A stretch of DNA of 32,416 bases, taken from Gammaproteobacteria bacterium (GTDB taxonomy: Bacteria > Pseudomonadota > Gammaproteobacteria > SZUA-152). Below, piece by piece: positions 9,838 through 20,195 of the stretch; position 1 is the stretch's first letter; each line of letters opens with the position of its first letter. The stretch covers positions 1-32,416 of the forward strand of contig JAKISS010000034.1 of the NCBI GenBank assembly GCA_021648485.1, given 5' to 3'. Under the pieces are notes generated by a model. That model ran no database searches. It saw only the letters and a program-made list of their open reading frames with translations, and had not been told where the DNA came from. Position numbers and translations under genes: made by a program.

Positions 9838-10011
9838 ACAAAAAGTGTGCGCGGCGAAGCGTAAGCCTGTACACTACGCGCCCTCTCCGGTTCCGCCCAG
9901 CAGTATCTGTGGGTAGAGACGCGACAGGCTTTCCCGCGAACTCCGGCTCTTACTTTTTTGATGAAAAGCGAGCTTTCCTCGCGTTCAATCATTCAAGTAC
10001 AGGCAAAACAT

Positions 10012-11859
10012 ATGACTACCGACACGGTAACCGCGTTCGATCAACTGGCACTGAGCAAACCCATTCTTAAGGCGCTGGACGAAGTGGGCTACGAAAGTCC
10101 CTCGCCCATTCAGGCAGAAACCATTCCCTTGCTGCTGGAAGGCAGGGACGTACTGGGCCAGGCACAAACCGGCACCGGTAAAACCGCTGCGTTTGCTCTG
10201 CCGCTACTTTCCAACCTCGATCTTAAACAAAAAAATCCGCAGGTACTGGTGCTGGCACCTACGCGCGAACTGGCTATTCAGGTGGCCGAAGCTTTTCAGA
10301 AATACGCCAAACACCTGAAAGGGTTTCACGTATTACCGGTTTATGGTGGTCAGGATTACCGTGGCCAGATTCGTGCCCTGCAACGTGGTGTACATGTGGT
10401 GGTTGGCACGCCGGGCCGGGTGATGGATCACATGCGTCGCGGCACGCTCAAACTGGATCAGCTAAGCGCTATGGTGCTGGACGAAGCCGACGAAATGCTG
10501 CGCATGGGTTTTGTTGACGATGTGGAATGGATACTGGAACAGACACCGGACGAGCGACAAATTGCTTTGTTTTCCGCCACTATGCCAGCACAAATCCGGC
10601 GCATTGCCACGCGCTATTTGCGCAACCCGGCACAAATTACCATTAAAACCAAAACGGCAACGGTTGACACTATTCGACAGCGCTTTTGGCCGGTGAGCGG
10701 TATGCACAAACTCGATGCATTGACGCGAATCTGCGAAGCCGAACCCTTCGATGCAATGATCGTCTTTGTGCGCACCAAAACGGCCACTGTGGAACTGGCT
10801 GAAAAACTGTCTGCCCGTGGTTATGCTGCTGCCGCTATCAACGGTGATATTCAGCAAAACTTGCGTGAACGCAGCATTAATAATCTGAAAAAAGGCAAAT
10901 TGGATATTCTGGTTGCCACCGATGTTGCTGCCCGTGGGCTGGACGTGGAGCGTATCAGCCACGTTGTCAATTACGACATCCCCTACGACACCGAAGCCTA
11001 TGTGCATCGCATCGGCCGTACTGGTCGTGCGGGTCGTCAGGGAGACGCCATCCTGTTTGTTGCTCCGCGTGAAAAACGCCTGTTGTATTCCATTGAGCAG
11101 GCCACCCGGAAAAAAATCGAACGCATGGAGTTGCCATCCACGGAAATCATCAACGACAAACGTATCGACAAATTCAAACAACGCATTACCGATACTTTGG
11201 CGACGGAAGAAATGGGCATTTTTTATCAGCTCATTGAACGATACCAGCAAGAGCACAACGTGCCCGCATTGGAAATTGCCGCTGCACTGGCGTATTTGCT
11301 GCAAGGTGACACACCGTTATTGCTACAAAACAAACCGCAACGTCAGTCCCGTGACAGTTGGGACAGAGATGATCGTCCTGCATCCAATAAGCGTGGAGAC
11401 AAACGCGGCAACAAACGTGATAGTAAACGCGAGAACAGCAGAGACAGTGGCGAAGCTAAAATTCGCCCGCGCAAAGAGCGTACACCGAAAAAAGAAATGC
11501 CCCCCGCTGAAGGTCTGGAACGTTTCCGTATTGAAGTTGGTCACAGCCACGACGTGCAACCGGGCAATATCGTTGGAGCCATTGCCAATGAAGCCGGGCT
11601 TGATGGCAAAAATATCGGCCACATCAAAATCCATGATGACTTCAGCTATGTGGATCTGCCCGAGGGCATGCCCAAAGAAGTCTTTCAGGATTTGATTAAA
11701 ACCCGGGTAGCGGGGCAAGCATTAAAAATTTCCCGGGTAGGCGCAGACGGCAAGCCTGTGGCAGTTGATAAAAAATCAGAAAAACGCAGCAAGCTAAAAG
11801 CCAAACCAAAAAGCAAAGACAAAAAAAGCCCCCGGAAAAAAAGTGCAACAAAGGACTAA
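10012..11859 (+). CDS. deaD: ATP-dependent DEAD-box RNA helicase DeaD/CsdA
   Basis: DeaD unwinds RNA duplexes during ribosome assembly and cold adaptation. The 615-residue product shows the full helicase core: Q motif through SPIQAETIPLL, Walker A AQTGTGKTAAF (51-61), PTRELAIQV, TPGRVMD, VLDEADEML (DEAD at 157-160), FSATMP, then IVFVRTKT, ATDVAARGLDV and HRIGRTGRAGRQG. The C-terminal part has the DeaD/DbpA RNA-binding domain (EVGHSHDVQPGNIVGAIANE onward). It ends in a Lys/Arg-rich tail, and an Arg/Asp/Lys-rich linker precedes the RNA-binding domain. I placed the start at ATG 10012 (MTTDTVTAFDQL) because it fits the family; the frame is open 18 codons further to a TTG at 9958. It converges with hemB. 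Confidence 0.95.
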   Translation: MTTDTVTAFDQLALSKPILKALDEVGYESPSPIQAETIPLLLEGRDVLGQAQTGTGKTAAFALPLLSNLDLKQKNPQVLVLAPTRELAIQVAEAFQKYAKHLKGFHVLPVYGGQDYRGQIRALQRGVHVVVGTPGRVMDHMRRGTLKLDQLSAMVLDEADEMLRMGFVDDVEWILEQTPDERQIALFSATMPAQIRRIATRYLRNPAQITIKTKTATVDTIRQRFWPVSGMHKLDALTRICEAEPFDAMIVFVRTKTATVELAEKLSARGYAAAAINGDIQQNLRERSINNLKKGKLDILVATDVAARGLDVERISHVVNYDIPYDTEAYVHRIGRTGRAGRQGDAILFVAPREKRLLYSIEQATRKKIERMELPSTEIINDKRIDKFKQRITDTLATEEMGIFYQLIERYQQEHNVPALEIAAALAYLLQGDTPLLLQNKPQRQSRDSWDRDDRPASNKRGDKRGNKRDSKRENSRDSGEAKIRPRKERTPKKEMPPAEGLERFRIEVGHSHDVQPGNIVGAIANEAGLDGKNIGHIKIHDDFSYVDLPEGMPKEVFQDLIKTRVAGQALKISRVGADGKPVAVDKKSEKRSKLKAKPKSKDKKSPRKKSATKD

Positions 11860-11999: not shown

Positions 12000-12020
12000 G
12001 CCCACTTGCAAAATCCAGGT

Positions 12021-13121
<1,101 letters not shown>

Positions 13122-13182
13122 TCAACAACAGGCGCTTTAGGCAATGCAGGAACAGTTGTCGAATAATACTTACCTGTTGCGA

Positions 13183-13222
13183 CTGAAAACAAAACGGGCA
13201 CACAAGAAACCTTGTGTGCCCG
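13183..13222 (-). terminator. Factor-independent terminator after adk
   Basis: CGGGCACACAAG (13195-13206) and CTTGTGTGCCCG (13211-13222) form a perfect 12-bp stem with a 4-nt loop. Read on the minus strand it is followed by TTTTGTTTTC. It lies about 80 bp after the adk stop and should end the adk/H1-like transcript before hemB. Confidence 0.88.
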
Positions 13223-13300
13223 ATTGTAATAGCGCCCCCTGCCGGAAACAAGCCAGGGAGCGTTTTGGGTGCTAAAGAACCATCAGCCGACTAACGACTT

Positions 13301-13620
13301 TTATTTGGCCTTTGCCTTTTTCTTCCTGGCCTTCTTTTTGGCTGTTTTTTTCTTAGCGACCTTTTTTTTGGCCGTTTTCTTTTTCCGGGTTCCTTTTTTC
13401 TTTGCCGTTTTCTTTTTTACAGCCTTTTTCTTGACTGATTTTTTCTTTCTACCCTTCTTTTTGACAACTTTTTTCTTTACAGCCTTTTTCTTGGCCGATT
13501 TTTTCTTTACAGCTTTTTTCTTAGCTGATTTTTTCCTCACGGCCTTTTTCTTAGCCGTGGTTTTCTTTTTAACGACCTTCTTTTTGGCCGCGCTCTTGCG
13601 AGCCTTCTTTTTCACCGCCA
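13301..13620. repeat. Degenerate 15/30-bp tandem coding repeats of the H1-like tail
   Basis: Read on the plus strand, about 320 bp consist of variants of a unit like TTTTTCTT(A/G)GC or TTTTCTTTACAGCC, giving KKK-Ala-x on the minus strand. The repetitive DNA makes expansion and contraction between strains likely. It also creates a long spurious Phe-rich frame on the opposite strand. Confidence 0.8.
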
Positions 13621-13621
13621 T
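13301..13621 (-). CDS. Nested in-frame histone H1-like lysine-rich protein
   Basis: Codon 278 of the adk frame is an ATG (13619-13621) with AAGGAGG exactly 8 bases upstream (13630-13636), the same signal and spacing as the adk start. Initiation here would yield a 106-residue protein starting MAVKKKARKSAAKKK. It contains 59 lysines by direct count, with the rest mainly Ala, Val, Thr, Ser, Arg and Gly in a KKKxx rhythm, and no acidic or aromatic residues. This composition is that of H1-like nucleoid proteins (Hc1/AlgP-type tails), which bind DNA non-specifically. Whether it is made alone, only as part of the Adk fusion, or both cannot be decided from sequence. The identical ribosome site argues for separate synthesis. 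Confidence 0.65.
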   Translation of the reverse strand: MAVKKKARKSAAKKKVVKKKTTAKKKAVRKKSAKKKAVKKKSAKKKAVKKKVVKKKGRKKKSVKKKAVKKKTAKKKGTRKKKTAKKKVAKKKTAKKKARKKKAKAK

Positions 13622-14452
13622 GGTTGTTGCCTCCTTAATGGCATCGCTGCTTGATTGTAATGGTGGTACTTCTGGGTTTGTTTCGGTTATGTCCAAAAGT
13701 TCTTTAGCTTTTTGCTCTAATTTAGTTGTTTTTTCAAAAGTTTCTACCTTTGGAGGTGAGTCGTTGAGTGTTTTTTTAAGTCTCGCTATTTCCAGGTTGC
13801 TTAATGTTGACTGCTCTATCGCTTTGCATAAACGGATGAAGATTCTATTGATATCATCGCTTCCATCTATGACCGTCAATTTCCCCTGTATCTGATAATG
13901 TCTGACCATGGGCTCGGTTTGTGTTTCAAATACACGCAAACGGTTGCTGATGGTGTCTTCATTATCGTCTGCACGATGGTGCAGTGTGCCACCGCATAAA
14001 TCACAGTGATCGTCTATTTTGGGAGGAGATGTATAAATGTTGTACATCTGTCCACAGGGTCTACAGGTACGTCGTCCCGTGATACGTTGTATCAGCAGGT
14101 CAAAATCCACGTTAATCAGGATGGCGGATTGTAACGGACGACCCATGCGATTCAAAATAGTATCGAGCGCGGCTGCCTGAGGTAAGTTTCGTGGGAACCC
14201 GTCAAGAATGAAGCCTTTTTGTGTATCTTTATCGTTTAATCGCTCTTCCATCATTCCCAGTACGATTGAATCCGATACCAGCTGGCCTGCATCCATTGCG
14301 GCTTTGGCCTGTAATCCAAGCGGTGTTTGTGCAGCGACGGCAGCACGTAGCAGATCACCCGTGGAAATTTGCGGAATCCCATATTTGGCAGCTAATTTTT
14401 TTGCTTGTGTGCCCTTTCCGGACCCTGGTGCGCCGATCAGTACGATCCTCAA
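13301..14452 (-). CDS. adk: Adenylate kinase with histone H1-like C-terminal extension
   Basis: Adenylate kinase interconverts ATP + AMP and 2 ADP. Residues 1 to about 215 form a complete enzyme: P-loop IGAPGSGKGTQ (6-16), STGDLLR (30-36), FILDGFPRNLPQA (81-93) and a LID domain with Cys130, Cys133, Cys150 and Cys153, the zinc-binding form. The frame continues through a linker (about 215-277) into 106 residues of KKK-plus-two-residue repeats (278-383), resembling bacterial histone H1-like proteins. The start is TTG at 14452, 8 bases after AAGGAGG (14461-14467). Normal Adk is about 215-220 residues. A second AAGGAGG with ATG lies at the beginning of the tail (see nested gene). A strong terminator follows. 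pfp is divergent. Confidence 0.93.
   Translation of the reverse strand: MRIVLIGAPGSGKGTQAKKLAAKYGIPQISTGDLLRAAVAAQTPLGLQAKAAMDAGQLVSDSIVLGMMEERLNDKDTQKGFILDGFPRNLPQAAALDTILNRMGRPLQSAILINVDFDLLIQRITGRRTCRPCGQMYNIYTSPPKIDDHCDLCGGTLHHRADDNEDTISNRLRVFETQTEPMVRHYQIQGKLTVIDGSDDINRIFIRLCKAIEQSTLSNLEIARLKKTLNDSPPKVETFEKTTKLEQKAKELLDITETNPEVPPLQSSSDAIKEATTMAVKKKARKSAAKKKVVKKKTTAKKKAVRKKSAKKKAVKKKSAKKKAVKKKVVKKKGRKKKSVKKKAVKKKTAKKKGTRKKKTAKKKVAKKKTAKKKARKKKAKAK
13630..13636 (-). promoter_or_regulatory. Internal Shine-Dalgarno sequence within adk
   Basis: On the minus strand the sequence AAGGAGG lies 8 bases before an in-frame ATG (13621) in the middle of the adk frame. A full anti-Shine-Dalgarno match at optimal spacing inside a coding region is uncommon and is the main evidence for the nested H1-like protein. 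Confidence 0.75.
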
Positions 14453-14905
14453 CTCGGCAGCCTCCTTTCATTATGTAAGCTGGCTGTGTTCGTTAATAGT
14501 TACTTCAATGCACGTTTATGTACAGACGGCATGTTAAGTAAAATTACAGCAAACCATCTTTCGCCACTCATTACCAAAATGCGACAGAATACGAACAGCA
14601 ATAGTACATTCATTCACGTTCGCGCTAAACCTACTCTTAAGCTATTGGGTAAGTCAATAGTTTGTGCAATGAATTTTATTGTTAATGGGGCATGTTATCG
14701 GTGTATTTTTCAAGGTAAGCAATGCTGATGGGTCTTCGTCAGCGTGCTATGCACAGGCTATGAAAATGAGAGATGATGATTTTGATACTGTATTTGTAGC
14801 CTGAAAACAAATGTAGCGGGTATGCTGGATTTTCTTCATGCCAATATTCGGGTCGTTATTGTGCGTGTTGATGAGAGGGTTAATGCACTTTGGGAGATAA
14901 ATGAC
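14453..14905. other. 453-bp divergent intergenic region, adk to pfp
   Basis: The region holds the adk ribosome site (AAGGAGG on the minus strand, 14461-14467) and the pfp ribosome site (GGGAGA, 14891-14896). It is AT-richer than its surroundings, and no credible gene was found in it. It must contain the divergent promoters of adk and pfp, but I could not pick consensus -35/-10 pairs with confidence. The pfp frame is open upstream to 14822, but that part does not match the family. Confidence 0.5.
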
Positions 14906-16171
14906 ATGACAAAGAAAAATGCCTTTTATGCGCAATCAGGTGGTGTGACAGCGGTAATTAACGCAAGCGCGTGTGGTGTGATTGAAACCGCACGTAGCTA
15001 TAAAGACAAAATGGGTAAGATTTATGCCGGTCGTAATGGCATCATTGGCGCTTTGACTGAAGACCTGATCGACACCAGCAAGGACTCCGCGCGTGCTATT
15101 GCCGCACTTCGCTACACACCATCCGGTGCGTTTGGTTCCTGTCGATACAAGCTTAAGAGCCTGGATGATAATCGTGCTGAATATGAACGTCTGATTGACG
15201 TATTTGCTGCGCATAATATTGGTTATTTTTTTTACAATGGGGGTGGTGATTCTGCTGATACCTGTTTAAAGGTTTCACAAATCTCCAAATCGCTGGGTTA
15301 TCCCATTCAGGCGATTCATATACCCAAGACCGTCGATAATGATCTGCCTATCACTGATAACTGTCCCGGCTTTGGTTCGGTAGCCAAATATGTGGCTGTT
15401 TCCATTCGTGAGGCTGCTTTTGATGTGGCTTCCATGGCTAAAACCTCAACCAAAATATTTGTGATGGAGGTGATGGGGCGTCATGCTGGCTGGATTGCCG
15501 CTGCCGGTGGCCTTGCTGCAGAAAATGTCGGTGATGCACCGCAGATCATTTTGTTCCCTGAAGTGGCCTTTAATGAACGTAAGTTCATGGCACGGGTAAA
15601 ACAGGTGGTGGATGATTGTGGCTACTGTGCCATTGTTGTTTCCGAGGGTGCGCGTTATAAAAATGGTACCTTCCTCGCCGAGTCTGGTGCGCGTGATGTC
15701 TTTGGTCATAGCCAATTGGGTGGCGTTGCCCCGATGGTGGCGCAGATGATTCAGGCCAGGCATGGTTACAAATATCACTGGGCTGTTGCCGACTACCTGC
15801 AACGTGCAGCGCGACATATTGCGTCCAAAACCGATGTCGAACAGGCTTATGCGGTTGGCAAAGCTGCCGTCGAGATGGCTCTGAAGGGTAAAAATGCAGT
15901 GATGCCGGCCATAAAGCGTATTTCCAGCAAACCGTACAAATGGACAATCAGTGAAGCCAGGCTGACGCGGGTGGCTAACGTAGAGAAGATGATGCCACGT
16001 AACTACATCAGCAAAGACGGCTTCCATATTACCCCGCGCTGTCGTCATTATTTACAGCCCCTGATTCAGGGGGAGGATTACCCGCCCTTCAAAAATGGTT
16101 TGCCCCAGTATGTGACATTGAAAAATGTTGCGGTGAAAAAGAAGCTGGATAAACCCTTTAAGGTTAAGTAA
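14906..16171 (+). CDS. pfp: 6-phosphofructokinase, pyrophosphate-dependent type
   Basis: This PfkA-superfamily enzyme phosphorylates fructose 6-phosphate reversibly with pyrophosphate. The 421-residue product has the N-terminal AQSGGVTAVINA (9-20), NGGGDSADT (111-119), PKTVDNDLP (140-148) and MEVMGRHAGW (187-196) with substrate-binding Met-Gly-Arg. Two residues separate PPi from ATP enzymes: Asp115 in GGGDS replaces the second Gly of GGDGS, and Lys141 in PKTVDND replaces the Gly of PGTIDND. Both are of the PPi type here. ATG 14906 (MTKKNAFYAQSGG) follows GGGAGATAA and fits the family. It is divergent from adk and about 1.5 kb from ppa, which would compete for pyrophosphate. Such enzymes are common in methanotrophs and chemolithoautotrophs. 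Confidence 0.93.
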   Translation: MTKKNAFYAQSGGVTAVINASACGVIETARSYKDKMGKIYAGRNGIIGALTEDLIDTSKDSARAIAALRYTPSGAFGSCRYKLKSLDDNRAEYERLIDVFAAHNIGYFFYNGGGDSADTCLKVSQISKSLGYPIQAIHIPKTVDNDLPITDNCPGFGSVAKYVAVSIREAAFDVASMAKTSTKIFVMEVMGRHAGWIAAAGGLAAENVGDAPQIILFPEVAFNERKFMARVKQVVDDCGYCAIVVSEGARYKNGTFLAESGARDVFGHSQLGGVAPMVAQMIQARHGYKYHWAVADYLQRAARHIASKTDVEQAYAVGKAAVEMALKGKNAVMPAIKRISSKPYKWTISEARLTRVANVEKMMPRNYISKDGFHITPRCRHYLQPLIQGEDYPPFKNGLPQYVTLKNVAVKKKLDKPFKVK

Positions 16172-16607
16172 TTTGGATATGTTGCGGAGTCGGGTTCGCG
16201 CAATAAGCCTTCCCGTTGTTCAAAAGGTTGATGATGGCGGTGGTGAATGTGGCAAGTTTTAAATCAATAGAGACAGGTAGAAACGTATATTCGCCAGCCT
16301 GAAGAGCAGGCGTTGCTTTATCTGATTTTTGTAGTATGTGACTTGTTGGTGTTGGTAACATGTTGGCAGAGAGCACCCGCTAAAGTATAAAGAAAGGAGG
16401 CGGCACAGTCATTTTGACTGCCTGGCCAACAGTACGGCCTTATTCATTGAAGATGTACTCTAAAGTTTCAGTTGTTTTTCCCGACAACCTGAAGTGGGCA
16501 TGTGTTTTTGTAGCAATGAAAACAGACAGTGCTTGTTTTACATATGTCAGGTATCGTAACGGGTATCTCTTGAATATATGAGATTTTACATGACGGGGTT
16601 TCAATTA
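16172..16607. other. 436-bp region without a convincing gene, pfp to Sel1 gene
   Basis: A small stem, CAGTC (16406-16410) and GACTG (16416-16420), follows an isolated AAAGGAGG (16393-16400). A 52-codon frame from a TTG at 16414 could be read after it, but the spacing is long and the product resembles nothing I know. No terminator with a T-run is visible after pfp. Confidence 0.4.
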
Positions 16608-18402: not shown

Positions 18403-20195
18403 GTGTCAATCAAACCCGCCAAGCTGACTTTGCCGGGGCTTGCAAGGGTTTTTCCGCGTACTCGCCTGTTCAAAAAACTTGATGACCTTCGTCAGTTTCC
18501 TGTTGTGTGGATTGCGGCACCGGGCGGTGCGGGTAAGACGACTCTGGTGGTCTGCTATCTGCGGGCAAAAAATATCACTCCTCTCTGGTATCAGGTTGAT
18601 CAGGGAGACAGTGACATTGCCTCCTTTTTTATTACCTGGGTGAAGGGCTTAAACAACTGAGCCGGTCACGTAAACGGGCACTGCCGCTGTTAACACCCGA
18701 TAATCAATTTGGCCTGCCGGTTTTTTCCCGCAATTTCTTCAGAAAGCTGTTTGAAAAATGAAAGCACTTGGCGTTCTGGTGCTGGATAATTTCGAATGGG
18801 TTAATGATGATGCGGCGTTTAATCAAATCCTGCGACAGGGGCTGGAAGAAATACCACCAGGCTGTCAGGTCATTGTCACCGGTCGGGCATCGTCTCCGGC
18901 GCAATACGCCGGGATGCTTGCCAAAGAACAACGGGTAAAAATTGGCTGGGAAGAATTGCAGCTGACGGAAAAGGAAAGCGCTGGTGTGATCAGCCAGTTG
19001 CATGCAGCGGATGTCTGTTCCGATGAAATGGCTGATTTATTACACAAGACTGCACAGGGCTGGGTTTCCGGTCTGGTGCTGTTGAATCAGTTTTGCTTAT
19101 CAAATGAACCCACTGACCTGAGTCAGGGGGTTCCGGGTAAAACAGATGATGGTTGCGCGCAACAGGCTTTTTTTGATTATTTTACCCATGAGATATTCAG
19201 TCGCCTGCCGACATCATAACAAAATGTCTGGACGACATACTGGCGAGGCAATATCAAAGTGATGTTTGAGCCGCTGGTTGACAAAGCATATTTTGAAAAA
19301 TCCTATTATTTGTTTAAAGTCGAAAATGATGCGCGTGGCACTTATTTAAGCTGGTTAGGTGTCATGGACAGTCTGTTTTATGCTCATGACTCCTGTGCAG
19401 GCGTGCCGAAGTGGATTGATGAGCTGGACGTTGTCAGAAAGAAGCATGCGTGCTACCCAAGCCTGGAAATTAAGGGAAGAGTGACGTTTACGGCCTTTAT
19501 TATACAGCTGATGGGGTGTCCTCAACGTGACATCGTTTGATGTCTGGCGACAAAAAGCCGAGTGTATGCAGCGTTTTATCCCCGATGCCTTTATTCGCTG
19601 TCTGACGGGTTCGCAACTGGCGATGTATTACATGTTTTATGGTCAGATAACAAAGCTCAAGGTGTTGGAAGAATCATTGATCGGCTCGGCAGGGTCCGAC
19701 TAAGGTTATGCCCATTGCACGTATTCTGGCGTATTGGGTGGAGATCAACAGAGGCTGGATATCCGGTGAGACCGTTGAAACAGAGTCGGTGATCAATGCT
19801 GCCCTGAAAGTTAGTGAAGACAGTGGCGTGTATGTCACGCAATTATGGTTGTTATCAGCCACTGTGATGCATTATCTTGCTCGGCAAAACATTTCTGCCG
19901 CAGAAAAGTTTCTTGACCAGCTTCAGCCGTTTGTTCACCAGACCCACCGTGGCGAACAAATTTATTATCACTATCTGGCGGGTTGGCTGGCTTATGAGCA
20001 CAGTCGCTCCGCGTGTCAAAACATTGTTGAATTGCACACCCCTATCTTGAACTGATAAGCCACTGTGTCTACAGCTTTGTGCTGATTGAAATGGCACGCT
20101 TCGATGAAGCCAGACAACAGATTAAGAAAAACAGACGGCTGGCAGCAGACCTGAAAAGTGACAGCATGGGGTGTTTTATCTGGGCATGCTGGAAG
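18403..20195 (+). pseudogene. Decayed MalT/LuxR-type STAND transcription regulator
   Basis: A GTG at 18403 with AGGAG six bases upstream opens a frame with TLPGLARVFPRTRLF and Walker A IAAPGGAGKTTLV, typical of MalT-like STAND ATPases. It stops at 18660. Homology-like continuity then passes to other frames: KQLSRSRKRALPLLTPDN (from about 18646), VLVLDNFEWVNDD and EIPPGCQVIVTGRASS (18758-19219), and YLSWLGVMDSLFYAHD (19259-19540). It continues with CLTGSQLAMYYMFYG (about 19565-19701), the TPR-like SGVYVTQLWLLSATVMHYLA (19708-20055) and LIEMARFDEARQQIKKN (about 20080-20195). At least six frame breaks occur, and the C-terminal LuxR DNA-binding domain is missing. The gene is clearly non-functional. 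Confidence 0.82.

Follow-up and report, generated by a model that had tools for sequence, protein, structure and literature searches.

In the excerpted parts of the papers cited here, N-terminal proteoforms of a single gene are described for cyanobacterial CcmM, in which the short form is structural and the long form serves as an anchor, and a study in Salmonella reports that the Shine-Dalgarno (SD) context of alternative starts is stronger than that of annotated ones (PMC11005335). Among the rpn genes-within-genes, RpnS is the C-terminal product of the RpnL gene made from an internal start, and the mutant that abolishes RpnS changes K240, E241, and M244 (PMC10327210). Lysine-rich extensions are also on record. 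The C-terminal repeats of Pseudomonas AlgP and PhaF are Lys rich, H1-like, and predicted to be disordered, and AlgP is called DNA-binding and localizes to granules (PMC9239181). Actinobacterial topoisomerase I carries Lys-rich C-terminal repeats resembling H1 that keep the enzyme on DNA (PMC7398561). For adenylate kinase (Adk), no paper on Lys-rich tails was found among the best matches in the open-licence PMC literature, and a look through open PMC literature for the PRK13808 Adk gave nothing on the subject, judged by title.

We analyzed a stretch of 32,416 nucleotides from a Gammaproteobacteria bacterium (contig JAKISS010000034.1), referred to below as the window, in which an adk gene reads on into a Lys-rich extension. 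The original prediction that a single frame leads from adk into this tail proved right in frame and coordinates, as did its report of an AAGGAGG 8 nucleotides upstream of an in-frame ATG at the junction. The features of the locus are as follows.

13301..14452, minus strand: full open reading frame (ORF) of 383 amino acids comprising Adk, linker, and Lys-rich tail, with a TTG start and the stop codon TAA at 13301-13303
14461..14467, minus strand: Shine-Dalgarno sequence of adk, AAGGAGG, 8 nucleotides before the TTG at 14450-14452
13811..14452, minus strand: adenylate kinase domain, residues 1-214, with P-loop and four-Cys lid (by profile matches and alignments)
13622..13810, minus strand: linker, residues 215-277, leader-like and A/T-rich at wobble positions
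13630..13636, minus strand: internal Shine-Dalgarno sequence AAGGAGG, coded by Lys273, Glu274, and the first base of codon 275
13619..13621, minus strand: internal ATG (codon 278), with Ala as the next codon; ATG in 19/19 family members
13301..13621, minus strand: predicted free polycation of 106 amino acids, 59 of them Lys, with a net charge of +64 (by composition)
13195..13222, minus strand: terminator-like hairpin of 12 base pairs with a T-rich stretch downstream, after the adk stop and before hemB

By profile and alignment, the window protein includes a complete adenylate kinase: over residues 1-214 it matches the equivalog NF001380 across the whole domain with 284.3 bits, above the cut-off of 251, and scores 183.3 bits against Pfam ADK (cut-off 26.8); Pfam ADK_lid is matched as well. 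Invariant positions among 20 aligned Adks include G7-Q16, R36, R88, R123, R127, R160, R171, C130, C150, and C153, and C133 is also present in the window protein, completing the lid set of four cysteines. The solved Adk structure 5g3y aligns over window residues 1-212. A second, tailless Adk (G000:C9, 45% identity) is encoded in the window's genome, which is 86% complete, and a second Adk is listed in 23 of the 24 genomes of the window's family, with G003 as the sole exception.

The adk gene is followed by hemB (Pfam ALAD), and a gene of the PFK family lies divergently upstream. Terminator-like sites in the region number 4 compared to 2.4 expected, and the stem at 13195-13222 is the longest by far. 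Between 13050 and 14800, 3 promoter-like sites were found against 2.4 expected, none of them within the linker; those on the coding strand lie one in the adk part and one in the tail. An internal promoter was therefore rejected, and the lack of a coding-strand promoter in the linker together with the strong terminator after the stop suggests that one mRNA may serve both products. An RNA element was likewise rejected: no Rfam match was found in 12000-16500, and the RNAalifold consensus for 10 of the 19 family sequences had 7 pairs with a covariation term of -0.11. The opposite-strand ORF at 13269-13895 does not have the appearance of a gene, being a Phe-rich mirror of AAA codons. Elsewhere in the window, a row of short plus-strand ORFs in differing frames (18403-20055) reads by eye like a broken LuxR/MalT-type ATP-binding regulator, its first piece having no Pfam match at 0.001, and a plus-strand gene at 9958-11859 encodes a DEAD-box helicase with DeaD dimerization and DbpA domains and a short Lys-rich stretch at its end.

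From codon 278 on, 59 of the 106 tail residues are Lys (55.7%, compared to the 56% first reported). Residues 278-383 further contain 5 Arg and no acidic residue, giving the net charge of +64, which predicts binding to polyanions. The description of the tail as H1-like holds by composition but not by profile membership, as the window tail matches no Pfam family at E 0.1. Four relatives' tails score 11.8, 21.8, 29.7, and 24.1 bits against HC2 (PF07382), all below the cut-off of 40, and the window tail is not an HC2 member.

Adk matches were found in 55 of the 57 genomes of a first search, the window's own included, and in 338 of 369 genomes class-wide (E 1e-30). We took the 134 loci most like the window protein, 80 of them being part of the class-wide list, and set aside 7 that had no recognized P-loop, which left 127, a set chosen by likeness and not at random. 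A tail was called where an ORF of at least 260 residues has 12 Lys/Arg in some 40. Of these 127 loci, 89 have a Lys/Arg-rich tail; 19 of the 89 belong to the window's family and 70 do not. Sampling of the window's order covered its family only (24 genomes, including the window's), and 19 of these genomes have the long Adk. The five genomes without a full copy are 80 to 84% complete in four cases and 93% in one, and in G001 a fragment of 77 residues lies at the end of a contig. The tree of 128 Adk domains places the 19 family Adks in a single clade (support 99/96), which is nested in a larger, mostly tailed set where tailless Adks are scattered; its deep forks are poorly resolved, and the bootstrap had not settled. 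NF010381-type Adks score above the cut-off in 3 of 200 genomes of the phylum, and all three proteins have Lys/Ala-rich tails. This distribution marks the Lys-rich tail as an old and common feature of this Adk. Since tails are this common among relatives, neither a recent stop loss nor a sequencing error accounts for the long frame. The suggestion that loss of the adk stop codon merged two genes is not borne out as a recent event, tailed Adks being widespread in the class, and an error hiding an adk stop is excluded by the same open junction in 19 assemblies (the contig of L018 ends inside the tail).

The internal SD is what sets the family apart. The claim that it equals the site used by adk itself stands for the window's genome, in which core and spacing are the same, but not for the family: AAGGAGG is found at the adk start in 0 of the 18 other members, 10 of which have GGGAGG at that position. 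The internal site is therefore better conserved than adk's own SD. Within the window alone the motif does not go beyond chance, as AAGGAGG-N4-11-ATG occurs once compared to 0.40 expected and at least once in 30 of 100 shuffles; the excess over chance rests on place and conservation. In each of the 19 long family Adks, the in-frame ATG is preceded, always at the same distance, by AAGGAGG, AAGGAG, or AAGGA. The SD-ATG pair is kept in all of the family's long Adks and confined to this family. Outside the family, 0 of the 69 ORFs of at least 300 residues, which are all such ORFs in our set, have AAGGAGG-ATG in frame. Across the 127 loci, none of the 566 in-frame ATGs within the Adk domain is preceded by AAGGAG, and beyond residue 213 outside the family 2 of 71 are (codon 343 of L151 and codon 327 of L168). 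These two sites lie mid-tail and belong to both of the tailed Adks read from family f113, in which an internal start has perhaps arisen a second time, independently. Family f128 (L134, L147, L180) resembles the window's family in its Lys-[Glu/Gly]...Met layout but has a weaker SD. Many outside tails contain weaker SD-like words, mostly before GTG or TTG, and these were treated as noise. In 9/9 members of the window's genus, the internal start is ATG and the adk start is TTG, and the free form may thus be the more abundant of the two. Directly after the internal Met, 12 of the 19 family members have Ala and 7 have Thr. Ala or Thr after Met is common at true N-termini.

The K-E-x-x-x-M junction is present in 19/19 long family Adks, with residues 273, 274, and 278 invariant, and its codons are more uniform than the protein requires. 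Lys273 is AAG in 19/19 and Glu274 is GAG in 17/19, compared to GAA in 18/19 each for E251 and E257 of the same linker. The plain Fisher test for this codon contrast (p 1.9e-10) is inflated by kinship, and we therefore give tree-aware and per-lineage figures. The two members with GAA at Glu274 (L015 and L019) both belong to genus g3, in which 4 of 6 have GAG, and in these two AAGGA is left. By Fitch counts, the AAG column has 0 changes and the GAG column 1, and 44 conserved two-fold columns of the Adk domain have a mean of 3.59 changes, with a minimum of 1 and never 0. In the tail, 1 of 29 columns has 0 changes (K311, AAG 18/18), so that zero change is possible without an SD, and the Glu251 and Glu257 columns have 1 change each. 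Two-fold codon identity for the same residue among six lineage representatives is 0.37 to 0.59, which is near saturation. With one representative for each of the six lineages, the product of codon frequencies is 3.4e-7, a figure that treats the lineages as independent and represents g3 by a member with GAG.

The whole linker seems held at its wobble positions, towards A except at the SD. Pooled GC3 is 0.57 in adk, 0.31 in the linker, and 0.58 in the tail, and a drop of more than 0.15 is found in 18 of 19 family members (residues 213-255) compared to 2 of the 69 other long Adks (residues 213-270). The internal start region is predicted to be more open than 30 control positions (0.58 versus a mean of 0.44) and lies above at least 60% of its own controls in 19/19, part of the predicted open structure being due to A/T-richness. 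Taken together, the wobble constraint, the GC3 dip, the predicted openness, and the Ala/Thr preference resemble, on sequence grounds, a real leader and start within a coding frame. The gene contains a strong SD followed by an in-frame start codon, and both are conserved beyond the protein sequence, as expected of an in-frame N-terminal proteoform pair.

We consider it likely that the internal start yields a free H1-like polycation besides the Adk-polycation fusion, and that the tails of both share a nucleic-acid-type target. The comparative part of the original prediction of two products from one frame fares well, being backed by the SD-ATG in 19/19, the constraint at wobble positions, and the leader-like linker; the free product itself remains a predicted one. 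Initiation at the TTG (14452) would give the full Adk with linker and polycation tail, and initiation at the internal ATG (13621), behind an A-rich leader with a strong SD, would give the tail alone as a small H1-like polycation. Both tails would bind the same polyanion, most likely nucleic acid in the form of the nucleoid, RNA, or ribosomes. The free tail could then act as bulk binder or scaffold and the long form bring Adk activity to the same place, a model of scaffold and recruited enzyme that we took from the long and short forms of CcmM. A more elaborate version is speculative: the one frame, with the ratio of products set by the internal start, might let the tail scaffold a nucleic acid condensate into which the long form plants Adk, so that a local balance of ATP, ADP, and AMP is built in.

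The explanation that survives best besides this one concerns origin, and it agrees with two products on present function, so that the probabilities given to the two overlap. An ancestral family adk may have lost its stop and run into a separate small H1-like gene downstream, making the linker a former intergenic leader and the internal start an old start that was kept because the free protein was still needed. An older fusion that founded the family's linker is possible, and we give it tentative credence. It would account for the intergenic-like GC3 of the linker in 18/19 and for the complete start of SD, ATG, and Ala/Thr, and most of the 36 outside tails inspected pass from Adk into Pro/Ala/Lys-rich sequence with no such leader. 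Several outside tails (L134, L138, L146) nevertheless have spacers of some 30 to 60 residues too, and an inherited tail is simpler given that tailed Adks surround the family in the tree. Nor did a look for relatives with a stop between the parts turn up a pair of separate genes at the locus among the relatives read. L030, which has a Lys-rich ORF after adk and before a frame reading like PBP1b (by eye), was rejected as an unfused relative, as its adk groups with the second, short Adk (on long branches in the tree). Behind the tailless Adks L181 and L184 (family f77) lies a HemB-like frame (by eye), the same neighbor as in the window.

Alternatively, the tail could be a polycationic anchor of Adk and nothing else, with the SD-like site delaying ribosomes at the edge of the domain and giving Adk time to fold before the Lys-rich tail is made. 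The SD-like site does lie at the border of linker and tail in 19/19, and the 70 tailed loci outside the family indicate that a tail is possible without a free form. A pause would not need an ATG at fixed spacing in 19/19, Ala or Thr after it, or an open A-rich leader, and elsewhere long Adks lack AAGGAGG-ATG (0/69), 2 having AAGGAG-ATG in mid-tail; we regard this explanation as improbable. A conserved protein motif, such as a protease cleavage site for release of the tail, would fit the invariance of residues 273, 274, and 278 in 19/19 within a linker that is mostly variable, but it would leave unexplained why codon choice is restricted more than the amino acids require (AAG and GAG at the junction versus GAA at the nearby invariant Glu residues), and we give it very little weight.

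Lys-rich proteins elsewhere in the family bear on what the tail might bind. The family genomes hold 14 further Lys-rich tail matches, of which we inspected 9 and Pfam-scanned 8; the list is biased, since its members were found through likeness to the tail. Five of the 9 are NusB (2), topoisomerase I, DksA, and ribosomal protein S2, and for the other 4 a link to nucleic acid is not evident (two are HC2/AP2-like, one is a DUF2934 protein, and one matches no family). In these five (L124, L126, L127, L128, L131), the Lys-rich tail is C-terminal on NusB, topoisomerase I, and S2 and N-terminal on DksA, and the addition of polycations to transcription and translation proteins is perhaps a habit of this lineage. 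Genus g3 encodes a separate HC2-type protein (L123:853-1695, minus strand) that scores 43.9 bits against the cut-off of 40 and has a weak AP2-like domain after its Lys-rich part, which L125, also of g3, resembles by eye. The Lys-rich matches point to nucleic acid rather than polyphosphate, as far as such likeness can tell. A role for the tail in holding Adk at polyphosphate granules, where AMP would be recycled with polyphosphate, is very unlikely, because PPK1 was found in none of the 12 genomes that represent the window's genus (six of them 93 to 99% complete). The idea follows AlgP, a Lys-rich H1-like protein that associates with such granules in the excerpted part of PMC9239181. PPK1 is present in 8 of 12 genomes of the family's other genera, and PPK2 is patchy, being found in 5 of the 12 from the window's genus and in 14 of 24 overall.

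The nucleotide-level signature in this family points to a separately made tail and so offers a handle on why a soluble enzyme carries a polycation. Should cells produce the tail on its own, and should it bind nucleic acid, a single gene would serve both adenylate balance and the organization of the nucleoid (or of RNA). Candidate internal starts of this kind are also detectable by wobble conservation and a leader-like GC3 dip, without ribosome profiling.

Compared to the described systems, the locus shares features with each and matches none. CcmM is alike in that one gene gives N-terminal proteoforms with different roles, which for Adk are predicted. The CcmM tail consists of folded Rubisco-binding modules, whereas the tail here is a low-complexity polycation on a metabolic enzyme. 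As far as the excerpted account of the rpn genes goes, their SD is likewise coded by Lys-Glu shortly before Met, but those genes form a toxin-antitoxin pair, have an internal promoter as well, and encode proteins unrelated to Adk. AlgP and PhaF differ in their KPAA-type repeats, which are not on an enzyme, and an internal start is not mentioned in the excerpts describing them. Topoisomerase I resembles the tailed Adk in having a Lys-rich C-terminal extension on an enzyme, according to the excerpts on it, but that enzyme already acts on DNA, unlike Adk. The NF010381 (PRK13808) Adks share the Lys/Ala-rich tail on Adk but belong to another Adk lineage, against whose profile the window protein scores 175.2 bits compared to a cut-off of 426. 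Internal in-frame starts and Lys-rich H1-like tails are thus each already known, and their combination on adenylate kinase was absent from the best matches in the open PMC literature.
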